A stretch of DNA of 42,421 bases, from contig NZ_CADCTE010000087.1 in the NCBI RefSeq assembly GCF_902805515.1, positions 1 through 42,421 on the forward strand. The letters run 5' to 3'. The notes below the pieces were generated by a model, which searched no databases, was not told the origin of the DNA, and saw nothing but the letters and a program-made list of their open reading frames with translations. The DNA comes from an uncultured Arthrobacter sp. (GTDB lineage: Bacteria; Actinomycetota; Actinomycetes; Actinomycetales; Micrococcaceae). Positions within the stretch are counted from its first letter, which is position 1. The number at the start of each line of letters is the position of its first letter. A program made the position numbers and the translations under genes. Shown here in pieces: positions 5,222-22,073 of the stretch.

Positions 5222-5904
5222 TCCTCCGCTCCCCGCGGTGCGGGCACCGGACGTGACCGGGCCACCAGTTCGGAGACCTCGCGGGCCCGCTGGATCAGGC
5301 CCGCCGGGCTTCCACCGGCGAAGGCGTCCTGCAGGAGCGGCCCGCCGAGGCTGACGGCGAGCGCACCGGCCTCGATCCAGCCGGGCACGTCGGCGATGCC
5401 GATGCCGCCGCTGGGAATGACGGAAATGTCGGGGAAGGGCCCGCGCAGCTGGCCGATATACCCGGGCCCCACGGTGGAGGCGGGGAACAGCTTGACCGCC
5501 GTCGCCCCCGCGTTCCAGCCTGCCAGCAACTCGGTGGGGGTCAGGCCGCCGGGGTAGACCGGGATGCCCCGCTCGACGCACAGGCCCACGGTCGGAAGGT
5601 CCATCACGGGGGTGACGATGTAGGCGGCTCCGGCGTCGATGGCCTGGCGTGCCTGCTGGACCCCGGTGACCGTGCCCACGCCGATTTCGGCGTCGGGCCC
5701 GAACCGTTCGAGCAGCCGCGGCAGCTCCTCGAGTGCGCCGGGGGTGCTGAGGGTCAGTTCGATCGAGGTGACCCCTCCGGCGAGGAGCGCGTCGAGCACC
5801 GGGGCGTACTGCTCCGCGTGGCCCGCGCGGAGCACCGCGATCACCGGATTCCGGAGCAGGGCCTGGCCTGCGGCCGGACGCCGGAGGGAGGCGGGAGAAG
5901 TCAT
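5218..5904 (-). CDS. eda: KDPG/KHG-type aldolase
   Basis: A 228-residue class I aldolase that would cleave 2-keto-3-deoxy-6-phospho sugar acid to pyruvate and glyceraldehyde-3-phosphate. Visible features are Arg26 in VIAVLR, the catalytic Glu49 in SIELTLSTPGA, the strand GVGTVTGVQQA, the PGGLTPTE turn, the Schiff-base Lys138 in TAVKLFPAS, and the phosphate-binding end IPSGGIGIADVPGWIEAGA. Length is normal for the family. Both gene ends overlap neighbours by four bases (ATGA), so it should be translationally coupled to the SDR upstream and the kinase downstream. Stereochemical preference (gluco versus galacto) cannot be read from the sequence. Confidence 0.88.
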   Translation of the reverse strand: MTSPASLRRPAAGQALLRNPVIAVLRAGHAEQYAPVLDALLAGGVTSIELTLSTPGALEELPRLLERFGPDAEIGVGTVTGVQQARQAIDAGAAYIVTPVMDLPTVGLCVERGIPVYPGGLTPTELLAGWNAGATAVKLFPASTVGPGYIGQLRGPFPDISVIPSGGIGIADVPGWIEAGALAVSLGGPLLQDAFAGGSPAGLIQRAREVSELVARSRPVPAPRGAEE

Positions 5905-9998: not shown

Positions 9999-11069
9999 GT
10001 GCGCGACGCCGACGCTCCGCTCCACTCGAAACAGCGCTCCCGCCTCATTGACGTGGCCAACCATGCCGGTGTCACCAAATCGGTCGTTTCCCGGGTCCTG
10101 AACAACGACCGCACCCTCTCCATCCGGGAGGAGACCCGTACGCGCATCCTCGACGCGGTGCGGGACCTGGGCTACCAGCCGCACACCGGCGCCCGCGCCC
10201 TGGCCGGCGCCAGTACCCGCGCCCTTGCCCTGCTCATCCCGGACCTCACCAACCCGGTCTACTCCCGCATTACCCGCGGCGCCGTCCAGCAGGCGCGGGC
10301 CCGCGGCTTCGCCATGCTGCTGGCGGAGGACTCCGCCGATTTCGGCGTGGACCGGCAGTTCGCCGACCTCGTGGCGAGCCACCGCGTGGACGGGCTCCTG
10401 ATCGCCTCGGCACGCCCCGACCACCCGCTGTTGGGCATGCTGCCCGACTCCCGGATTCCGCACGTGTTCGTGAACCGCGTCGTCGCGGGCTCCGGGCGGA
10501 ACATCTCGCTGCAGATCGAGGCGGCCAGCCAGGCCGCCCTGGACCACCTGCTCGCGCTGGGGCACCGGCGGATCGGCCACGTCTCGGGCCCGGAGCAGCT
10601 CGCGCCGACCGTCAGCAGACGGGCCGGGCTGCTTGGCGCCGCGGCGGCGGCGGGCATTCCGGAACCCTCGATCGAGTCGGGGGAGTTCAACGAGCAGGGC
10701 GGCTATGCCGCGGCCACCCGGCTGCTGGCGGACCACCCCGACCTGACCGCGATCTACGCGAGCACCCTGAATCAGGCGATCGGCGTCCTCTCGGCCGTCC
10801 ATGCCGCGGGGCTGCGCATTCCCGGGGACATCTCCGTCATCTCCTACGACGACCTCCCCCTCGCCGGGTTCCTCCACCCTCCCCTGACGGCCATCGCCAT
10901 GCCGCTGATGGAGCTGGGGCAGGCGGCCGTCGACGCACTCTGCGCCCAGCTCGAAGGGGCACCCCCCAAGGATGTGCTGGTGCCGGGCGCCCCCGAGGTG
11001 GTGGTGCGCGGGTCAACCGGGCCGCCGCGTTCTGGACCGCCCGCCGGCACCGCAAAAGTGCCGTCTTAA
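9999..11069 (+). CDS. LacI-family transcription regulator of the sugar-acid operon
   Basis: A 356-residue regulator. The N-terminal helix-turn-helix LIDVANHAGVTKSVVSRVLN is followed by a hinge region GARALAGASTRALAL and a periplasmic-binding-protein-like effector domain beginning ALLIPDLTNPVYSRI. The GTG start at 9999 is supported by GGGAGG five bases upstream. It is divergent from the dehydratase-led operon and a perfect LacI-type palindrome lies in the gap, so it is most likely the local repressor, released by a sugar-acid pathway intermediate. The last 25 residues are Pro/Gly-rich and probably disordered. The inducer is not predictable. Confidence 0.88.
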   Translation: MRDADAPLHSKQRSRLIDVANHAGVTKSVVSRVLNNDRTLSIREETRTRILDAVRDLGYQPHTGARALAGASTRALALLIPDLTNPVYSRITRGAVQQARARGFAMLLAEDSADFGVDRQFADLVASHRVDGLLIASARPDHPLLGMLPDSRIPHVFVNRVVAGSGRNISLQIEAASQAALDHLLALGHRRIGHVSGPEQLAPTVSRRAGLLGAAAAAGIPEPSIESGEFNEQGGYAAATRLLADHPDLTAIYASTLNQAIGVLSAVHAAGLRIPGDISVISYDDLPLAGFLHPPLTAIAMPLMELGQAAVDALCAQLEGAPPKDVLVPGAPEVVVRGSTGPPRSGPPAGTAKVPS

Positions 11070-11150: not shown

Positions 11151-11723
11151 ATGACGAAAACGATCTACAGAGCCGCCTCCTCCCTCAACGGATTCCTCGC
11201 CGACGGGGAGGGTTCGATGGACTGGCTCTTCGCCGTGGACCAGCCCGAGCCCTACCACCAGGGGCACTTCCTGGACGGCATCACGGTGCTGGTCCAGGGG
11301 TCGAAGACCTATGAGTGGATGCTCGAGGCCGAGGGCGTCCTCGACCGCCCCGGACGGTGGCGGGAGTTCTACGGGAACCGCCCGGTGTTCGTCTTCACCA
11401 ACCGGGACCTTCCCCGGCCGGACGGCGCCGATGTGCGGTTCGTCTGCGGCGAGCCCGGCGCCGTCTACCCGCAGCTCCTCGAGGCCGCGGGGGACAAGGA
11501 CATCTGGCTGATGGGCGGTGGCGACCTCGCCGGCCAGTTCTTCGACGCCAACCTGCTCGATGAGGTGCAGGTGGCGATCGCCCCGGTCACCCTCGACGCC
11601 GGGGCGCCGCTGCTGCCGCGCTTCATCCAGTCGGACCGGCTCAGCCTGCGCAGCGCGGAGCAGCTCGCCCAGTTCGCCCACCTGACCTACGAAGTCACCC
11701 GCTGGCAGCCCCATCCTGCCTAA
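11151..11723 (+). CDS. Dihydrofolate reductase-fold (RibD C-terminal-like) protein
   Basis: A 190-residue soluble protein. It opens YRAASSLNGFLAD, the usual start of the DHFR-like RibD C-terminal family, and continues with VLVQGSKTYEWML, PVFVFTNRDLP and the NADPH-binding turn DIWLMGGGDLAGQFFDANL. Related proteins (YyaP, YwjB) are widespread in Gram-positives and their physiological substrate is not established, although reductase activity on pteridine- or flavin-pathway compounds is plausible. ATG 11151 is preceded by GAAGGGA about nine bases away. It stands alone between the LacI gene and the riboswitch-controlled hydrolase. Confidence 0.8.
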   Translation: MTKTIYRAASSLNGFLADGEGSMDWLFAVDQPEPYHQGHFLDGITVLVQGSKTYEWMLEAEGVLDRPGRWREFYGNRPVFVFTNRDLPRPDGADVRFVCGEPGAVYPQLLEAAGDKDIWLMGGGDLAGQFFDANLLDEVQVAIAPVTLDAGAPLLPRFIQSDRLSLRSAEQLAQFAHLTYEVTRWQPHPA

Positions 11724-11859
11724 CCACCCGCCCAGGGCCGGATGCCGCGCTTTTCCTGTGCCTTTCCTGCGGATAATCCTCTGGTGCCGCACCCCCGGTG
11801 GTTCGAGAATGGAGGGGAGGGCGGCAGCGAACCTGCCCTCCAGCGGCGGCTGCGGCCCC

Positions 11860-11939
11860 GCTTTCGACAAGGGCAAAACCGGTGCGAGCCGGTGACGCAA
11901 AGCCACGGGGCCTTACGGTCAGCCGGGCTGCCGAACAGC
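11860..11939 (+). ncRNA. Class I cyclic-di-GMP (GEMM-I) riboswitch aptamer
   Basis: The conserved core is visible: AAGGGCAAAACC, then a P2 stem ACCGG/CCGGT closed by a GCGA (GNRA) tetraloop (11878-11893), then GACGCAAAGCCACGGGGCC, then CAGCCGGGCTGCCG, the P3 side. A closing P1 helix pairs 11860-11866 (gctttcg) with 11932-11939 (cgaacagc, one bulged C). GACGCAAAGCC and the GNRA loop are hallmarks of the c-di-GMP-I class. The 3' strand of P1 ends directly against AAGG, the presumed ribosome binding site of the hydrolase start at 11951, so ligand could control access to translation. A GATAAT -10-like box lies at 11772-11777. A GEMM-Ib (cGAMP) variant is not excluded. Confidence 0.85.
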
Positions 11940-11950
11940 AAAGGTCTCCC

Positions 11951-13237
11951 ATGCACGACACCTCCCCGGGTACCGCCCGGCCCATCCCCCGCCGGTTGGC
12001 GGCACACCTGCTGCGCACCGCGCTCACCCTCTGCCTTGCCGCCGTCGTTGCGGCGCTCGGACCAGGGGCACTCCAGCCGGTCCACGCCGCCACGGCGTCC
12101 ATCTCCCTGAGCGCCTCCAGCGGATCCGCCGGGACCCTGGTCACCGTCTCCGGAACGGGGTTCCCCAAAAAGTCGAAGGGCACCCTCACCGCCGGTACGG
12201 CCTCCGTGCCCTTCACCGCCAACGCGTCCGGATCCTTTACCGCCGGCATTGTCATCCCCGACGCCGGCAGCCCGGTGCTCGTCGAGGCGCGGGCGGGCTC
12301 GAGCATCGCCTCGGCGCCCTTCACCCTGACCTACGCCCCGCCCGCCGGGCCCGCCCCCGTGCCGGGGATCCGCACGGCACCGCTGCGTTTCGGCGCCGGC
12401 ACCCCCGGCGGACCGATGGCCGCCGGTGAGCTGGACGAGGTGGCCGTGCTCGCCGGCGAGGCACCGTCGGTCGTCCTGTCCTACAAGGACTTCGCCCAGG
12501 CCCCGCCGCTGGCCGAGCTCGACGCCGTCCGGTCCCGCGGCGCCGTGACCCTGCTGACCTGGGAGCCGTGGCTCTGGGGCGGCGGCACCGCCCAGCCCGC
12601 CTACTCGCTCGACCGCATCGCCGCCGGGGACTTCGACCCGTACCTGCGCCAGTGGGGCTCCGCCCTGACCCAGTGGGGCCATCCCGTGATGCTGCGCTTC
12701 GGCCACGAGATGAACGGCAACTGGTACCCGTGGGCGGAAGGGGTCAACGGCAACGAGGCCGGCGACTACGCCGCGGCATGGCGCCACGTGCACGACGTCG
12801 TGGCCTCCACCGGCGCCACCAATATCTCCTGGGTGTGGAATCCGAACGTCCCGTACTGGGGGTCGACGCCCCTGGACCAGCTCTACCCGGGAGCCCAGTA
12901 CGTCGACGCCGTAGCGCTCGACGGCTACAACTGGGGCGCCTCCGCCTCGTGGAGTACCTGGGTGGAGCCCGATGCCCTGTTCGGGGAAGGACTTGCGGAG
13001 GTGCGCCGGCTCGCCCCGGGGAAGCAGATCCTGATCGCCGAGACCGCGTCGGCGGAGGCGGGCGGATCGAAGTCCGCCTGGAACACGTCCCTGGTGCGCT
13101 ACCTCGCGGCCCAGCCCGACGTCACGGCCCTGGTCTGGTTCCACTTCGCCAAGGAAACCGACTGGCGGATCAACAGCAGCGCCGGCTCCGCGGCGGCGCT
13201 GGCACAGGCGCTCGCGGCCCGGCCGCCGGCGGGCTGA
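11951..13237 (+). CDS. Secreted GH26-like glycoside hydrolase
   Basis: A 428-residue exported protein. A signal peptide covers about residues 1-46 (RR, hydrophobic core, cut near VHA/ATAS). Residues 48-125 form a beta-rich TIG-like domain (SGSAGTLVTVSGTGFP). The catalytic part has VMLRFGHEMNGNWYPW, with the likely acid/base Glu253, a conserved ISWVWNPN strand, VDAVALDGYNWG, and the likely nucleophile Glu364 in ILIAETASAEAGG; this matches clan GH-A family 26 (beta-mannanase-like) proteins. Polysaccharide substrate is not known and could be an extracellular matrix glycan. The gene sits 11 bases behind a c-di-GMP-I-type riboswitch. A strong hairpin follows at 13244-13270. Confidence 0.82.
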   Translation: MHDTSPGTARPIPRRLAAHLLRTALTLCLAAVVAALGPGALQPVHAATASISLSASSGSAGTLVTVSGTGFPKKSKGTLTAGTASVPFTANASGSFTAGIVIPDAGSPVLVEARAGSSIASAPFTLTYAPPAGPAPVPGIRTAPLRFGAGTPGGPMAAGELDEVAVLAGEAPSVVLSYKDFAQAPPLAELDAVRSRGAVTLLTWEPWLWGGGTAQPAYSLDRIAAGDFDPYLRQWGSALTQWGHPVMLRFGHEMNGNWYPWAEGVNGNEAGDYAAAWRHVHDVVASTGATNISWVWNPNVPYWGSTPLDQLYPGAQYVDAVALDGYNWGASASWSTWVEPDALFGEGLAEVRRLAPGKQILIAETASAEAGGSKSAWNTSLVRYLAAQPDVTALVWFHFAKETDWRINSSAGSAAALAQALAARPPAG

Positions 13238-13306: not shown

Positions 13307-14065
13307 TCAGGTCTGGACCCGCTCCGGGGCCAGCCGGTATCCGACGCCCCGGACGGTCACCAGCCAAGCGGGCTGGCGGGGATCTTCCCGGAGCTTCTTT
13401 CGGAGATTCCCGATATGCACTTCGACGGCCCGTTCGTCCACATCGCTCACGTAAGCCGCGTCGCGGTACTGCTCGCCGCGCACCACCCGGACCAAATCGG
13501 CTTTAGTGCGGACCGAGCCGCCGCTGCGCATAAGGTCGTGAAGTAAATCGAACTCGCTCCGCGTTAAACTGATTTCGGCATCAAACAGTTTGGCAGTGCG
13601 GGTTTCCTGGTGGAGCACGAGGCCGTTGTGGCGCAGTACCGGCTGCTGCGGAACCGCCCCCGCCTCGGGGGATGCGCCGGCCGGCCCTCCGGCCTCCCGC
13701 GGCCGCCGGAGCATGGCAGCGACCCGGGCCCTCAGCTCGCGGGGCCGGAAGGGCTTGGTGAGGAAGTCGTCGGCGCCGGACTGGAGGGCCATGAGGGTGT
13801 CCAGTTCATCGGCGCGTGCGGTCAGCATAATGACGTAGCAGTCGCTGAACGCCCGGATGCGCCGGAGCACCTCGAAACCGTCGATATCGGGCAGTCCGAC
13901 ATCGAGGGTCACCACCGTGGGGCTGTTGCCGCGCACCGCGAGGACCCCCTCACGCCCGGTCGCCCCTGAGTGAACCTCGAACCCCGACTGCTGAAGGACA
14001 GCGCTCAAGAGATTGCGCACATCTTCGTCGTCTTCAATAACGACGGCAGTCCCCTGCTCACCCAT
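13307..14065 (-). CDS. OmpR-family response regulator
   Basis: A 252-residue two-component regulator. The receiver domain (1-120) has the acidic pocket Glu11-Asp13, phosphoacceptor Asp55 in VVTLDVGLPDIDGFEVL, Thr82 and Lys104 (LTKPF). A Gly/Ala/Pro linker (about 120-142) leads to an OmpR winged helix ending VTVRGVGYRLAPE. The ATG at 14065 follows TAAGGGAAA. It is divergent from a membrane histidine kinase across a 181-base, unusually AT-rich gap, so the two form a cognate pair that may be autoregulated. No target gene can be named from sequence. Confidence 0.92.
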   Translation of the reverse strand: MGEQGTAVVIEDDEDVRNLLSAVLQQSGFEVHSGATGREGVLAVRGNSPTVVTLDVGLPDIDGFEVLRRIRAFSDCYVIMLTARADELDTLMALQSGADDFLTKPFRPRELRARVAAMLRRPREAGGPAGASPEAGAVPQQPVLRHNGLVLHQETRTAKLFDAEISLTRSEFDLLHDLMRSGGSVRTKADLVRVVRGEQYRDAAYVSDVDERAVEVHIGNLRKKLREDPRQPAWLVTVRGVGYRLAPERVQT

Positions 14066-14234
14066 ATTTTTCCCTTACGCCGGAGGCCGGGAGACGTGAA
14101 ACGTATTCACCCTCGCACACCTTGAGACCCGTGATTGTTTTACAGGCTACAAGGGAAGTTCGTGTTAAGTAAGTTACGCAAGATTGCCGCAGTTTCTTTA
14201 CCGAATTTCTGCACCTCAATGCCCGTACGAGAGC

Positions 14235-14240
14235 AATAAT
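14235..14240 (+). promoter_or_regulatory. -10 box AATAAT for a leaderless kinase gene
   Basis: AATAAT (five of six bases match TATAAT) ends six bases before ATG 14247, the same spacing seen at several other genes here. It supports 14247 as the start rather than in-frame codons further upstream. Confidence 0.5.
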
Positions 14241-14246
14241 AGAGAA

Positions 14247-15977
14247 ATGTCCTCTCTTCATACGGAACCCGCGCCACCAGATTTTCTGTATGAGCCTCCG
14301 CCCGTCGAGTCGACCCCGACCACAAAGACGAACCTCTACTTCCGGCGGCTCGGTCCGCGGGTCCGGATCGGCCTGTGCCAGCTGCCCCTGACGGTCATCA
14401 TCATCGGCATCGTGCTGGCCGCCCCCAGCGTCTGGCCTGGACTGCTCAGCCTCCACTGGTTCCAGCTCGGACTCGCCATCCACGCGGCGCTGTTCCTGGC
14501 CTGCTGGCTGATCCCCTGGGAGCGCCTGCCCCAGGCCGCCCCCCTGATCATCCCGGTCGGGGACATCCTGGCGATCGCCGTGACCCGCAACAGCGGGCTG
14601 GAAATCCTCCCCGGCCTCGGTGCGCTCGCCGTTTTCCCCGTCATCTGGCTGGCCGCCTCGGGCATCCTCGGCTGGCTGGCGGTGCTCATGAGCTTCGTCG
14701 GTCCCCTGCTGATCGTGGGGTTTCCGGTGCTGGCCAAGCTCCCGGACGTCACCGCGGCCGAGCTGAGCGGCACGGTCTTCCTCCCCCTGACACTGCTCTC
14801 GGTCGCCCTCGCGGTCCGCTTCGCGACCGCCAATGTGGCCCTGCAGCAGCGCCAGCTGATGAAGAAGGATGCCATCCTGCGCGAGCTGCTCAAATCGAGC
14901 AAGGAGCGCGAGCGGCTCCTGCACACCGTGCTGGACACGATCGACGTCGGCGTCGTGGCGGTCAATGCCGAGGGCGAGACGATCCTCACAAACCACCAGC
15001 AGAACCTCCTCCACCGCCTCGCCCTGCCCTCCGGAAGCTCCGGCGCCGACGAGTCGGCGCTTGCACTGTTCGGCCAGGACCAGCGGACGGTCCTGCCGGA
15101 GGCCAAGCGCCCGGTGCGCCGGGCGGTCGACGGCGAGTCCTTCGCGGACTACCTGATCTGGATCGGGCAGGGCAACGACCAGCGGGCCCTCTCCACGGCG
15201 GCGCGGGCCATGAAGAGCGACTCCGGCGCGTTCAGCGGCGCCGTCATCGCCTCGAGCGATGTCACCGGCCTGGTCGAGGCGATCGCAGCGAAGGACGACC
15301 TGATCGCCAATGTCTCCCACGAGCTGCGGACGCCACTGACCTCGATCCTCGGCAACCTGGAACTGGCGCAGGACGCCGGCGATGAGGTGCCCCCGCGCAC
15401 CGCCTACTATCTGGACATCGCCCACAGCAATGCCGAGCGCCTGCTCGAGATCGTCTCGGACCTGCTGCTGTCGGCCTCCGCCGCGCTGAGCGTCCACCCC
15501 CGCCGCACCGACATTGCGGGCCTCGTGGATTCCAGCGTCGGCTCGCTGAGCGCCCTGGCCCGCGCCGGGGGAATCACCATCCGGGTTGATGTGCCCTCCC
15601 CGTTGTGGGCGCACGCCGACCCGCAGCGGACCTCCCAGGCGATCGACAACCTCCTGTCGAACGCGATTAAGTACTCCCCGGAGGGCGGCGCAGTCACCAT
15701 CACGGCCCGGCCCGACGGCGACGAGGTGGTCCTGTCGGTCGAGGACACCGGCTCCGGAATGACCCCGGCGGACGCCGCGAGGGTCTTCGACAAGTTCTTC
15801 CGTGCCCGCTCGGCCCGGGAATCGGAGGTTCCCGGCACGGGCCTCGGGCTGTCCATCACCAAGGCCATTGTCGAGGGCCACGGCGGAACGATCTCATGCA
15901 GCAGTGAACCCGGCCGGGGCACCCGTTTCACCGTCACCCTTCCCGATCACCCGGCACCGGCCGACACCCCGGCCTAA
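14247..15977 (+). CDS. Membrane sensor histidine kinase
   Basis: A 576-residue kinase. After about 35 polar residues there are several hydrophobic segments between about residues 40 and 195, forming a membrane sensor region. A coiled linker (LKSSKERERLLHTVLDTID) leads into a PAS-like domain (about 220-340). The dimerisation domain has phosphoacceptor His358 in NVSHELRTPLTSILGNLEL, and the ATPase domain has the N box DNLLSNAIKYS, the G1 box DTGSGM, the F box VFDKFF and the G2 box GTGLGLSI. It should phosphorylate the divergently encoded OmpR-type regulator. The input signal is unknown. A leaderless start is suggested by AATAAT six bases upstream. Confidence 0.9.
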   Translation: MSSLHTEPAPPDFLYEPPPVESTPTTKTNLYFRRLGPRVRIGLCQLPLTVIIIGIVLAAPSVWPGLLSLHWFQLGLAIHAALFLACWLIPWERLPQAAPLIIPVGDILAIAVTRNSGLEILPGLGALAVFPVIWLAASGILGWLAVLMSFVGPLLIVGFPVLAKLPDVTAAELSGTVFLPLTLLSVALAVRFATANVALQQRQLMKKDAILRELLKSSKERERLLHTVLDTIDVGVVAVNAEGETILTNHQQNLLHRLALPSGSSGADESALALFGQDQRTVLPEAKRPVRRAVDGESFADYLIWIGQGNDQRALSTAARAMKSDSGAFSGAVIASSDVTGLVEAIAAKDDLIANVSHELRTPLTSILGNLELAQDAGDEVPPRTAYYLDIAHSNAERLLEIVSDLLLSASAALSVHPRRTDIAGLVDSSVGSLSALARAGGITIRVDVPSPLWAHADPQRTSQAIDNLLSNAIKYSPEGGAVTITARPDGDEVVLSVEDTGSGMTPADAARVFDKFFRARSARESEVPGTGLGLSITKAIVEGHGGTISCSSEPGRGTRFTVTLPDHPAPADTPA

Positions 15978-16116: not shown

Positions 16117-18264
16117 ATGCAGTCCTCCCCCGTTCTCCACCTTTCGCGTTCGGGCACAAGCGTTGTGCTCGACACCACCACCAACGGCCTCCCGGCGGTT
16201 CTCTACTGGGGCGAGGCCCTGGGGGACATCGCCGACGACCAGCTGATTGCCCTCGCAGCGGCCCTCCGCCCGCAGCGGGTATCGGGCGGCATCGACATCC
16301 CGGCCCGTCTGACCCTCGTTCCGCAGGAGTCCTTCGGCTGGCAGGGAACCGCCGGCTTCACCGGGCACCGCGGCGGGTCCTTCATCTCCGCCGCGTTCAC
16401 CACCACCGACCTGCAGTCCACGGCTCACGACGTACGGCTCACCGCCGTCGACGCCGTCGCGGGCCTGACCCTCGAAGCGGAACTGACTGTCACCGAAGCG
16501 GGCCTGTTCCGCCAGCGCCTCGGCGTCATCAACAGTGCCGACATCGCCTACGAGGTCCGCTCCCTGCTGGCCACCTTCCCCCTTCCGGCCAGCGCACAGG
16601 AGGTCCTGGACACCACGGGCCGGCACCTGCGCGAGCGCAGCCCCCAGCGCCACGCCCTCACGGCCGGCAGCTACCGCAGGGAGAGCAGGAAGGGCCGCCC
16701 CGGCGCCGACGCGACCCTGCTGCTGGGCGCGGGCGAACCGGCCTTCGGGTTCCAGCGCGGCCTGGTCCACGCCGTCCACACCGCCTGGAGCGGGAATCAC
16801 CAGCTGCTCGTCGAAAAGACGCCGACCGGCGAGGCCTTCCTAGGAGCCGGGGAGCTGCTGCTCCCCGGCGAAATCGTGCTCGCTCCCGGGCAGCGGTACG
16901 ACGCGCCCGAGGCCCTCGGGTCCTGGGGCCATGGGCTCAACGAGCTCGCCGCCCGCTTCCATCAGGAACTGCGGCTCCGCGCCAACCACCCGCGGCGCCC
17001 GCGCCCGGTCACGCTGAACACCTGGGAAGCGGTCTACTTCGATCACAACCTCGAGCGCCTGACCCACCTCGCCGACAAGGCCGCCGCCGTCGGCATCGAG
17101 CGTTTCGTGCTGGACGACGGCTGGTTCTCCGGCCGCCGGGACGACACCGCCGGGCTCGGTGACTGGTTCGTGGACCCCGCGGTGTGGCCCGAGGGGCTGA
17201 CCCCGCTGATCGACCACGTCCGGTCGCGCGGGATGGAGTTCGGGCTGTGGTTCGAACCCGAGATGGTCAACCCCGACTCCGACCTGGCGCGGAGCCATCC
17301 TGACTGGATCATCCAGGCCGAGGGCCGCCTGCCCGTGCCCGGACGCCAGCAGCAGGTGCTCAACCTGGCGAACCCCGAGGCCTACGACTACATCCTGAAG
17401 TCGATCGACGCCGTGCTCACCGAAAACGACATCTCCTACGTCAAGTGGGACCACAACCGCGAGGTGCTCGACGGTGCCGACGCCCGCACCGGACACGCGG
17501 TCATCCACGAGAACGTCCTGGCGCTGTACCGCCTGCTCGACGAGCTGAAGCAACGCCACCCGGGCCTCGAGATTGAAAGCTGCGCCTCCGGCGGAGCCCG
17601 CGTGGACCTCGGCATCCTCGCTCGAACCGACCGCATCTGGACGAGCGACTGCATCGACCCCATCGAACGCCTGCCGAACCAGAAGTACACGGGGCTCCTG
17701 GTGCCGCCGGAGCTGATGGGCATGCACGTCGGCGGGCCTGTCTCGCACTCCACCGGACGCGCGCACGGCCTGTCCTTCCGCGCCGCCACGGCCGTCTTCG
17801 GCCACTTCGGTGTGGAGTGGGACATTTCGGACCTCAGCGCCGAGGACACCGCCGCCCTGGCGGAGTGGATCGAGGTCCATAAGTCGTGGCGGGACGTGCT
17901 CCACACCGGGCACACCGTCTACGCCGACCTTCCGGACCCGGCGATGGACGTGCGCGGCGTCGTCGCCCGGGACGGTTCGTCGGCCCTGTTCGGCTACTCG
18001 CTGACCGCCTCCAGCGCCAGCTACCCTCCGGGACGGATCGTCTTTCCCGGGCTCGACCCCGAGGGCTCCTACAGCATCTCGCTCGCTGCACCCCACCGCG
18101 AGCTTCCGGGGAACGGGCAGTCAGCCCTGGCCTGGGTGCAGGCGGCCGCCGAGGGATCCCCGCTGTCGCTCAGCGGACGCCTGCTGGGCTCGGTGGGCCT
18201 TGAAGCGCCGGTGCTGTTCCCGGAGCAGTCGGTCCTGATCGAGCTCAGGCGGACCGAGGGCTAG
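16117..18264 (+). CDS. GH36 alpha-galactosidase
   Basis: A 715-residue cytoplasmic enzyme (no signal peptide), normal for bacterial GH36. It has an N-terminal beta-sandwich, then the (beta/alpha)8 domain with LNTWEAVYFDHN, RFVLDDGWF, FGLWFEPEMVNPDSDL, the nucleophile Asp445 in YVKWDHNRE, ESCASGGARVDLG, and the likely acid/base Asp511 in WTSDCIDPIERL. In most relatives the last motif reads SDNTD; here Asn and Thr are Cys and Ile. It would release alpha-galactose from raffinose- or melibiose-type sugars. GAGGG precedes ATG 16117. The gene stands upstream of the repeat array and the LacI/GH42 locus, so galactoside use is the shared theme. Confidence 0.9.
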   Translation: MQSSPVLHLSRSGTSVVLDTTTNGLPAVLYWGEALGDIADDQLIALAAALRPQRVSGGIDIPARLTLVPQESFGWQGTAGFTGHRGGSFISAAFTTTDLQSTAHDVRLTAVDAVAGLTLEAELTVTEAGLFRQRLGVINSADIAYEVRSLLATFPLPASAQEVLDTTGRHLRERSPQRHALTAGSYRRESRKGRPGADATLLLGAGEPAFGFQRGLVHAVHTAWSGNHQLLVEKTPTGEAFLGAGELLLPGEIVLAPGQRYDAPEALGSWGHGLNELAARFHQELRLRANHPRRPRPVTLNTWEAVYFDHNLERLTHLADKAAAVGIERFVLDDGWFSGRRDDTAGLGDWFVDPAVWPEGLTPLIDHVRSRGMEFGLWFEPEMVNPDSDLARSHPDWIIQAEGRLPVPGRQQQVLNLANPEAYDYILKSIDAVLTENDISYVKWDHNREVLDGADARTGHAVIHENVLALYRLLDELKQRHPGLEIESCASGGARVDLGILARTDRIWTSDCIDPIERLPNQKYTGLLVPPELMGMHVGGPVSHSTGRAHGLSFRAATAVFGHFGVEWDISDLSAEDTAALAEWIEVHKSWRDVLHTGHTVYADLPDPAMDVRGVVARDGSSALFGYSLTASSASYPPGRIVFPGLDPEGSYSISLAAPHRELPGNGQSALAWVQAAAEGSPLSLSGRLLGSVGLEAPVLFPEQSVLIELRRTEG

Positions 18265-19886: not shown

Positions 19887-19954
19887 GTGAACGCTCCCAG
19901 AGATTGCAGAGGACATCGGTTCCGTGGTTTCTGGGAGCGTTCACAGAGCGTTCA
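19885..19954. promoter_or_regulatory. Paired LacI-type operators
   Basis: CTGTGAACGCTCCCAGA (19885-19901) and its exact reverse complement TCTGGGAGCGTTCACAG (19930-19946) form a 17-base inverted repeat. Each contains a site (19886-19899, 19932-19945) that matches the TGGGAGCGCTCCCA type of site known for CelR-like LacI proteins at 12 of 14 bases. Centres are 46 bases apart. A partial third copy, GAGCGTTCA at 19946-19954, repeats eleven bases after the same word in the second site. Confidence 0.75.
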
Positions 19955-20009
19955 AGGCAACGAGGCCCCTCCTCGTCTTGCGCGTGCAGAGCAAGCCGAA
20001 GGAGCAGGG

Positions 20010-22073
20010 TTGAACCTGAACAAATATCCAGTCACGGAGCTGTCCGGAAACGGAAAGCTCGTCTATGGCTGCGACTACAACCCCGAGCAGTGGAGCCGTG
20101 AGGTCTGGCTGGAAGACGTCCAGCTGATGAAGCAGGCCGGCGTGAACCTCGTGGCCATCAATATCTTCGGCTGGGCCGAACTTGAAAGCTCGCCCGGGAA
20201 CTACTCCTTCGAACGCCTCGATGAAATCCTCGACCTGCTCCACGAGCACGGAATCGGCGTCAACCTCGGCACCGGCACCTCCTCCACCCCGGCCTGGCTG
20301 ACCACCCTTCACCCCGAGATCCTCCCCCAGTCCGCCGACGGAGTCCGGGCCTGGCCCGGCGGACGGCAGGCCTGGTGTTCAAGCTCCCCGGTGTACCGCG
20401 AGCACGCGCTGCGCCTGGTCGAGCAGGTCTCCCGCCGCTACGGCGCCCACCCCGCCGTCCGGCTCTGGCACGTCTCCAACGAACTCGGCTGCCACAACGC
20501 CCTGTGCTACTGCGACGTCTCGGCCTCCGCGTTCCGCGGCTGGCTCCGCAGCCGCTATGAGACCCTCGATGCGCTCAACGCCGCCTGGGGCACCACCTTC
20601 TGGTCGCAGCGCTACTCCGGGTGGGACCAGATCCTTCCTCCGCGCACCACCATCTCCGCGTACAACCCCACCCAGGTCCTGGACTTCCACCGCTTCAGTT
20701 CCGATGAACTGCTCGGCTACTACTCGGCCGAGGCGGAGATCCTGCGGCAGCACAGCACCGTGCCGGTCACCACCAACTTCATGGTCACGGCCCACATCCG
20801 CACCCAGGACTACTGGTCATGGGCGCCGCACATGGACGTCATCGCCAACGACCACTACCTCGACCACCGGCTCGAGGCACCGACCATGGAACTGGCCTTC
20901 GCCGCCGACGCCACGCGCGGACTCGCCCAGGGCTCGCCCTGGCTGCTGATGGAACACTCCACCTCCGCCGTGAACTGGCAGCCGCGCAACATCGCCAAGG
21001 CACCCGGCGAGATGATCCGGAACTCCCTGACCCACCTCGCCCGAGGGGCCGACGGCCTGTGCTTCTTCCAGTGGCGCGCCTCCGTCCAGGGCAGCGAGAA
21101 GTTCCACTCCGCGATGCTCCCCCACGCCGGAACCGATTCGCGGGTGTGGAAGGAAGTCGTTGAGCTGGGCGGCATCCTTGAACGCCTCACCGAGGTCGGC
21201 GGCAGCACCGTGACCGCCGAGGCCGCCCTGGTCTTCAGCTGGGAAGCCTGGTGGGCCTACGACCGGGAGTCCCACCCGTCGTCGGATATTGCCTACCTCG
21301 ATCAGGTCCACGCCGCGTACAAGGCGCTGTGGGAGGCAGGCATCACCGTCGACATCGTCGCCCCGGGTGCCGACCTCTCCGCCTACAAGCTCGCCGTCGT
21401 GCCCGGCCTGTACCTGGTGCGCGACAGCGACGCCGCGGCGCTGGCCGACTACGTTGCCGACGGCGGCCACGCGCTCGTGACCTTCTTCAGCGGCATCGTC
21501 GACGAAAACGAGAAGGTCCGCACCGGCGGCTACCCCGGGGCGTACCGGGAACTGCTCGGTATCCGCACCGAGGAATTCCTTCCCCTGGCCCCCGGTGACA
21601 TGCCGGCCCTGGACAACGGCACCGCGGCGTCGCTGTGGAGCGAGGCACTGCGCCTCGAAGGAGCCGAGGCAATGGTCTCCTTCACCGGCGGCCACCTCGC
21701 CGGCACCGCCGCCGTCACCCGCAACCGGCACGGCGCCGGCACCGCCTGGTACCTCGCCACCGCGCTGGAGCCGGCGGCGCTGCGCGAAACCCTCACCCGG
21801 GCCGCCGCCGACGCCGGGATCACCGCCGCGTCCTCCCCCGAGGGCCTGGAGACGGTTGTCCGCTCCAACGGGGACCGGAGTTACGTCTTCCTGATCAACC
21901 ACTCGCCCGAAGAACACAAACACGCAATCCAGGGCCAGGAACTGATTGTCGGTGAGGAAGTTGCCGATGTCGTCGTGGTCCCCGCAGGCGCCGTCCGGGT
22001 TGTCCGCACCTCCACCTCCGCCCACCCAACCAATGGCCTCCCCACAGGCTCAAAGGATGTTGAAAGTGACTAG
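20010..22073 (+). CDS. GH42 beta-galactosidase
   Basis: A 687-residue cytoplasmic enzyme of typical GH42 length. It opens LVYGCDYNPEQWSREVW; the acid/base is Glu158 in WHVSNELGCH, followed by the metal-site cysteines CYCDVSASAF, and the nucleophile is Glu315 in LLMEHSTSAVNWQPRN. The C-terminal parts (trimerisation and beta-domain) are complete. It would cleave beta-galactosides imported by the linked ABC transporter. The start is TTG 20010, with GGAG five bases before it; a GTG at 19887 in frame lies inside the operator and is unlikely. It overlaps the next gene by eight bases. Confidence 0.92.
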   Translation: MNLNKYPVTELSGNGKLVYGCDYNPEQWSREVWLEDVQLMKQAGVNLVAINIFGWAELESSPGNYSFERLDEILDLLHEHGIGVNLGTGTSSTPAWLTTLHPEILPQSADGVRAWPGGRQAWCSSSPVYREHALRLVEQVSRRYGAHPAVRLWHVSNELGCHNALCYCDVSASAFRGWLRSRYETLDALNAAWGTTFWSQRYSGWDQILPPRTTISAYNPTQVLDFHRFSSDELLGYYSAEAEILRQHSTVPVTTNFMVTAHIRTQDYWSWAPHMDVIANDHYLDHRLEAPTMELAFAADATRGLAQGSPWLLMEHSTSAVNWQPRNIAKAPGEMIRNSLTHLARGADGLCFFQWRASVQGSEKFHSAMLPHAGTDSRVWKEVVELGGILERLTEVGGSTVTAEAALVFSWEAWWAYDRESHPSSDIAYLDQVHAAYKALWEAGITVDIVAPGADLSAYKLAVVPGLYLVRDSDAAALADYVADGGHALVTFFSGIVDENEKVRTGGYPGAYRELLGIRTEEFLPLAPGDMPALDNGTAASLWSEALRLEGAEAMVSFTGGHLAGTAAVTRNRHGAGTAWYLATALEPAALRETLTRAAADAGITAASSPEGLETVVRSNGDRSYVFLINHSPEEHKHAIQGQELIVGEEVADVVVVPAGAVRVVRTSTSAHPTNGLPTGSKDVESD

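Follow-up and report, generated by a model that had tools for sequence, protein, structure and literature searches.

In an Arthrobacter-type bacterium, a canonical c-di-GMP-I riboswitch probably controls translation of a secreted, beta-glucanase-like GH26 enzyme

The closest described counterparts of the RNA reported here are the Vc2 and Vc1 members of the c-di-GMP-I family (RF01051) in Vibrio cholerae. For Vc2, the reported ligand contacts are G20, A47, and C92, and the conserved bases also include C22, A23, A25, G42, C44, G45, and A47–A49 (PMC3764141, PMC4744006). Vc1 precedes gbpA, a secreted polysaccharide-related gene, and neither a terminator nor an anti-Shine-Dalgarno sequence is reported to be apparent there (PMC4744006). 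A further design of relevance is the B12 riboswitch of ppe2 in M. tuberculosis, which precedes a translated short open reading frame (ORF), with the downstream gene translated mainly by termination-reinitiation (PMC11260477). The literature searched contained no riboswitch study on c-di-GMP in the Micrococcaceae and no actinobacterial c-di-GMP-I riboswitch before a hydrolase. The riboswitch class is already known, and what is new is a member in an actinobacterial, little-described regulon. The reading preferred here, with a probability of roughly 0.7, is that of a canonical c-di-GMP-I riboswitch in an Arthrobacter-type bacterium, acting on the initiation of translation of a secreted, beta-glucanase-like GH26 enzyme. 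The stretch of DNA analyzed, 42,421 nt in length, is referred to throughout as the window (Table 1).

Using cmscan with Rfam 15 across the whole window, one match exceeded its threshold (11863–11936, forward strand; RF03167, 65.8 bits; gathering score, 59; E = 1.7e-13), while the remaining two matches listed (E = 0.72 and E = 1) were below their gathering scores. The former of these, to the Twister-sister ribozyme model (5281–5325, reverse strand; 23.7 bits; threshold, 34), is probably a chance match. The first-pass annotation had placed a GEMM-I aptamer at about 11860–11939, and a genome search with the covariance model of the parent family, RF01051, bore this out (11862–11935, 65.7 bits; threshold, 35). 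RF03167 and RF01051 each had one match in the draft genome (3.74 Mb, 91% complete), and neither model had any in the 14 genomes used as controls. A genuine c-di-GMP-I (GEMM-I) type aptamer directly 5' of the GH26 gene is confirmed; a model whose training set of family aptamers includes that of the window scored it at 89.4 bits. The core features had been described accurately in the main, as AAGGGCAAAA (11869–11878), GACGCAAAGCC, a P2 capped by a GNRA loop (GCGA, 11884–11887), and P3 were all found in the sequence. The P1 helix is short, with ~4 bp between UUCG (11863–11866) and CGAA (11932–11935). The contact bases correspond to 11872 (G20), 11899 (A47), and 11931 (C92), and the predicted C44–G83 interhelical partners are intact (C 11896, G 11922), both columns being invariant in the family aptamer alignment.

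Table 1. Positions of the riboswitch, its surrounding elements, and the downstream gene within the window
Feature	Coordinates	Strand	Basis
GATAAT, possible -10 element	11772–11777	+	By eye; stretch identical in two nearest relatives
GGAGGGC/GCCCTCC stem	11816–11841	+	Exact arms 11816–11822 and 11835–11841
Hairpin directly 5' of P1 (P0)	11842–11862	+	Predicted, 8 bp in the window
c-di-GMP-I aptamer (P1, P2, P3)	11863–11936	+	RF03167, 65.8 bits; RF01051, 65.7 bits
P3 5' strand GGGGCCUU, possible anti-Shine-Dalgarno strand	11907–11914	+	8 bp with 11941–11948, two of them G-U
AAAGG Shine-Dalgarno-like site and ATG	11940–11953	+	Sequence; AAAGG 11940–11944, ATG 11951–11953
GH26 hydrolase (428 aa); by eye, the N-terminus resembles a signal peptide	11951–13237	+	Pfam PF02156, 44.5 bits; cut-off, 20.2

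Overall, the window aptamer has in common with Vc1 and Vc2 the fold, the G20/A47/C92 contacts, the GNRA-capped P2, and both C44 and G83, and differs in its actinobacterial host and GH26 target. As with Vc1, it stands before a secreted polysaccharide-related gene, but the Vc1 motif lies within the first 111 nt of a ~225-nt 5' UTR, whereas the window aptamer ends 14 nt before the start codon (PMC4744006). The 3' strand of P1 had been said to abut the ribosome binding site 11 nt before the ATG; AAAGG does lie just 3' of P1, while the spacing from the Rfam end of the aptamer (11936) to the ATG is the longer value.

The best Rfam label, c-di-GMP-I-GGC (RF03167), leads RF01051 by 0.1 bits, and this lead is what would favor a true ligand variant with altered ligand or affinity. 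We infer that ‘GGC’ denotes the bases at positions 20, 47, and 92. The RF03167 consensus has GACGCGAAGCC where the window has GACGCAAAGCC, such that, at position 47, the window has A in place of the G of the consensus; the window aptamer therefore passes the RF03167 score and lacks its distinguishing base, whereas it passes the RF01051 score and carries G20/A47/C92, the GNRA loop, and the C44 and G83 bases. In GEMM-I RNAs, an A at position 20 is taken here to go with cGAMP. The window has a G at this position and, because G20 is kept, c-di-GMP rather than cGAMP is the expected ligand.

To place the base at position 47 in context, related aptamers were drawn from three samples. The family sample (395 genomes) had RF03167 matches in 43 genomes, over the cut-off in 38, and all 62 family places were taken, of which L147 and L148 (weak and without the core) and L144 (3' part off pattern) were dropped. 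The resulting 59 family leaders carried G-A-C at positions 20/47/92 in 58 cases and G-G-C in one (L026). From the order (396 genomes, 44 with a match) and phylum (396 genomes, 157 with a match) samples, 54 loci were read out of many more matches, mostly the best-scoring, and A47 was present in every one (49 by script, 5 by eye). In total, A47 occurred in 112 of the 113 related aptamers read, and an exact G47-core pattern was found in none of 100 phylum genomes. As A47 is present nearly throughout, the window RNA is best regarded as a canonical c-di-GMP-I aptamer, the Rfam label is probably misleading for it, and a true GGC variant is very improbable. The GGC model seems to catch ordinary actinobacterial c-di-GMP-I aptamers through general likeness. 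The sole G47 aptamer (L026, 1501–1576, reverse strand) precedes a short ORF and a response regulator and offers a natural GGC-type test case.

The c-di-GMP-I structure was well maintained over 57 distinct aptamers, with standard pairs in 97.5% of cells and P1 as the weakest helix (90.4% paired). Two-sided changes were observed in 6 of 20 pairs, values reached by 0 of 500 shuffles, though relatedness inflates such counts; one of the double changes is shared by the window, where a C-G pair at the base of P2 is replaced by A-U. Upstream of the aptamer, the counterparts of the P0 hairpin in the 59 leaders had double changes in all three consensus pairs, with each pair broken in 7–9 leaders. A further upstream stem (11816–11841) had also been suggested as an extra element, and its arms are indeed exact, but the covariation seen in the family belongs to the P0 hairpin instead. 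Beyond the window, this stem was seen in the two nearest relatives alone, and in one of them the 5' arm carries a 3-nt deletion. It may represent a leader element or something akin to a terminator. The candidate GATAAT is weak as a -10 element because a sigma-70 scan of 11700–12050 found no promoter-like site. Many response-regulator leaders (L009, L011, L017, L023, L036, L119, and similar) have a TTGCTANNAT-like sequence a few bases 5' of the hairpin that, by eye, resembles an extended -10. A leader more strongly conserved than the coding sequence was considered as a sign of function and rejected, as identities to the two nearest relatives were 93.3–98.0% for the leader and 93.6–94.8% for the coding sequence.

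The product of the downstream gene is apparently an exported, beta-glucanase-like GH26 enzyme, in agreement with the secreted GH26-like hydrolase proposed from the first reading of the sequence; membership of GH26 is supported by the Pfam score and by both glutamates, and export is predicted from the N-terminus. The closest solved relative was 2vi0, ‘endoglucanase H’ (phmmer E = 7.7e-46, residues 179–422), which we take to be Clostridium thermocellum Lic26A, a lichenase. The candidate catalytic motifs HEMNG and IAETA of the window protein align with HEANG and IAEFA of 2vi0 (HExNG and IAE in common), and the two glutamates are presumed to have the catalytic roles usual in GH26. In contrast to 2vi0, the window protein starts with a signal-like N-terminus of its own, and >100 residues precede the segment that aligns. 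No NCBIfam match was found for the protein at E = 0.001.

Relatives carry the c-di-GMP-I switch before several surface and enzyme genes. Based on tblastn with the proteins of the window, the gene following the 59 family leaders was a GH26 homologue (n = 19), a response regulator (n = 22), or another gene (n = 18, including L021, which is masked by N). Among those of the latter that were scanned with Pfam, downstream genes encoded a GH5 enzyme (L127), an ice-binding-like protein (L123), a protein with FG-GAP repeats (L016), and one with an AraC-type N-terminal domain (L145), while those of L117, L122, L139, and L140 had no match over a Pfam cut-off. Ten order and phylum loci that were scanned included a MerR/HTH protein, a response-regulator receiver, a GH16 enzyme, and polysaccharide-lyase-like, CAP-domain, and type IV pilin-like methylation-motif proteins, with no Pfam match for the downstream gene of two. 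At L150 and L153, the aptamer precedes a MerR/HTH protein of 73–74 aa (by Pfam and by likeness, respectively) that presumably resembles BldC, a developmental regulator.

When the best 80 of 327 GH26 relatives found were considered, an upstream leader match to the model built here occurred at 14 of 80 loci, all from named genomes and not counting the window itself; one of the 14 is weak (L061, 33.6 bits). On the GH26 tree, where rows labelled ‘none’ (e.g. L100) are those with no match to this model, the riboswitch label was clustered yet not confined to one clade; a single origin of the pairing was rejected, as the tree needs 4 changes, 2 of them forced by well-supported branches. The locus L099 (WNZI01000001.1), entered as Vibrio cholerae strain 35D, has a GH26 gene and riboswitch that group with Arthrobacter and is probably mislabelled. 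The small share of GH26 loci with a leader match, together with a leader no more conserved than its coding sequence, could point to an aptamer that has decayed or lost its function and persists through inheritance, but all contact bases and the C44–G83 partners are intact and P2 has undergone the paired change, leaving this explanation with very little credence.

When the 8 nt nearest to C93 are set aside, the first AUG was located 15–25 nt from C93 in all 59 family leaders (18 nt in the window). For 20 of the 22 response-regulator loci, this AUG (the next one in L030) starts a short ORF in another frame (L009–L011, L013, L014, L017, L018, L023, L026, L027, L029, L030, L033, L034, L036, L118–L120, L124, and L125), while in L015 and L121 it is in the frame of the regulator itself. 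The stop of the short ORF begins 1 or 5 nt past the first base of the nearest ATG of the regulator in 19 loci by script, and an equal overlap was seen by eye in L034, where the script missed the motif. The short ORFs vary in sequence and, through their overlap with the regulator ATG, are likely translational couplers. A GGAC recurs in codons 3–4 of the short ORFs and, by eye, is a candidate partner for a GUCC that follows the Shine-Dalgarno site. The ppe2 design resembles these response-regulator relatives and not the window gene, though the relatives differ from it in ligand and aptamer class and their coupling is read from sequence alone (PMC11260477).

That an AUG is found near the aptamer even when it opens only a short ORF suggests that the step under control is the start of translation next to the aptamer, and translational control is likely. 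A scan of 11700–12050 in the window revealed no intrinsic terminator-like site, consistent with the earlier statement that the aptamer is followed by no separate terminator. Actinobacterial switches can terminate without a U-tract, and equilibrium folding (below) gives no clear direction, both of which would suit a switch whose main target is transcription (such as by factor-dependent termination) or the decay of the RNA. Set against the missing terminator-like site and the proximity of the AUG in 59 of 59 leaders, such a mode of action is improbable.

The direction of the switch is, even more than its ligand and its translational mode, something we infer. The aptamer would have no separate expression platform and, as it ends so close to the start codon, ligand-driven folding should alter ribosome access to AAAGG and the AUG. 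In the mechanism proposed, the P3 5' strand of the ligand-free RNA would pair with the Shine-Dalgarno region (AAGGUCUC, 11941–11948), and binding of c-di-GMP would lock P3 and P1, release the Shine-Dalgarno region, and turn the enzyme ON. With this pairing forced, the predicted energy relative to the forced aptamer was -0.1, -0.6, and -0.9 kcal/mol for leader starts at 11785, 11812, and 11840, and the pairing lost to the aptamer by 2.5 kcal/mol for a start at 11859. The first reading had P1 itself masking or freeing the AAGG, which it may; bearing on this are the ~4 bp of P1 and a rival duplex between the P3 5' strand and the Shine-Dalgarno region, which comes within 1 kcal/mol of the aptamer fold for 3 of 4 leader starts.

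Complementarity to the Shine-Dalgarno region was rejected as proof of an ON switch, as control tails were nearly equal and own pairs were not clearly better than swapped ones. Specifically, 34% of 187 control gene tails pair equally well with the window P3 strand, the mean P3–tail pairing was -10.5 kcal/mol in the family compared to -9.4 kcal/mol in controls, and own P3–tail pairs averaged -10.5 compared to -10.2 kcal/mol when swapped (7.4% of permutations as low). In 40 of 59 family tails, a U comes directly after the final AGG (AGGU anywhere in 18 of 187 control tails), and AGGUNC occurs in 29 of 59, counts that are not independent because the family is related by descent. By eye, the tails that follow the aptamer elsewhere in the order, in other families, have a different appearance. 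A comparison of equilibrium folds in the presence and absence of a forced aptamer was likewise rejected as a test of direction, having no consistent sign over 53 family leaders: the forced aptamer raised Shine-Dalgarno accessibility in 16 and lowered it in 10, compared to 26.5% and 29.5% of 200 control chimeras, respectively. In the window itself, accessibility dropped from 0.15 to 0.08 when the aptamer was forced, and both nearest relatives likewise had a decrease.

The same canonical aptamer could instead form an OFF switch, in which the ligand-bound form would favor a local hairpin holding the Shine-Dalgarno site and start codon (AGGU with ACCU, codons 5–7), or would block the ribosome sterically, such that the glucanase is made at low c-di-GMP. 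An enzyme that cuts matrix polysaccharide while c-di-GMP is low would be in keeping with dispersal. The hairpin is predicted in the window and L133, with a similar one in L132, and in all three of these leaders the forced aptamer lowers accessibility; they are, however, near-identical, and the 53 family leaders have no consistent fall. An OFF switch is a serious contender, if somewhat short of an even chance, and ON is preferred here by a small margin, with OFF nearly as likely.

Beyond the preferred reading of translational control at the GH26 gene, a broader proposal is speculative and, on balance, unlikely: that the compact Arthrobacter-type aptamer is its own expression platform, with P3 and not P1 switching because the P3 5' strand doubles as the anti-Shine-Dalgarno strand, and that it would drive glucanases directly and the response regulator via a throwaway short ORF by termination-reinitiation, forming one c-di-GMP regulon devoted to cutting extracellular polysaccharides. 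In favor of the preferred reading, matches to GGDEF (5) and EAL (5), each over its cut-off, are present in the draft genome, so c-di-GMP is plausibly both made and broken down. Within the window, a response regulator (13307–14065, reverse strand), convergent with the GH26 gene and without its own aptamer, is the best match in the genome to the riboswitch-controlled regulator of L011 (61% identity; second best 55%, on C85), and a histidine kinase gene (14184–15977, forward strand) is divergent to it. The flanking forward-strand genes encode a LacI-type regulator (9999–11069), a GH36 alpha-galactosidase (16117–18264), and, by eye, a beta-galactosidase-like ORF (19887–22073), a sugar-use neighborhood.

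Because the GGC model seems to pick up ordinary c-di-GMP-I aptamers, surveys that count RF03167 matches as a ligand variant could mislead in actinobacteria. For the Micrococcaceae, the finding ties c-di-GMP to secreted glucanases through a directly testable RNA.
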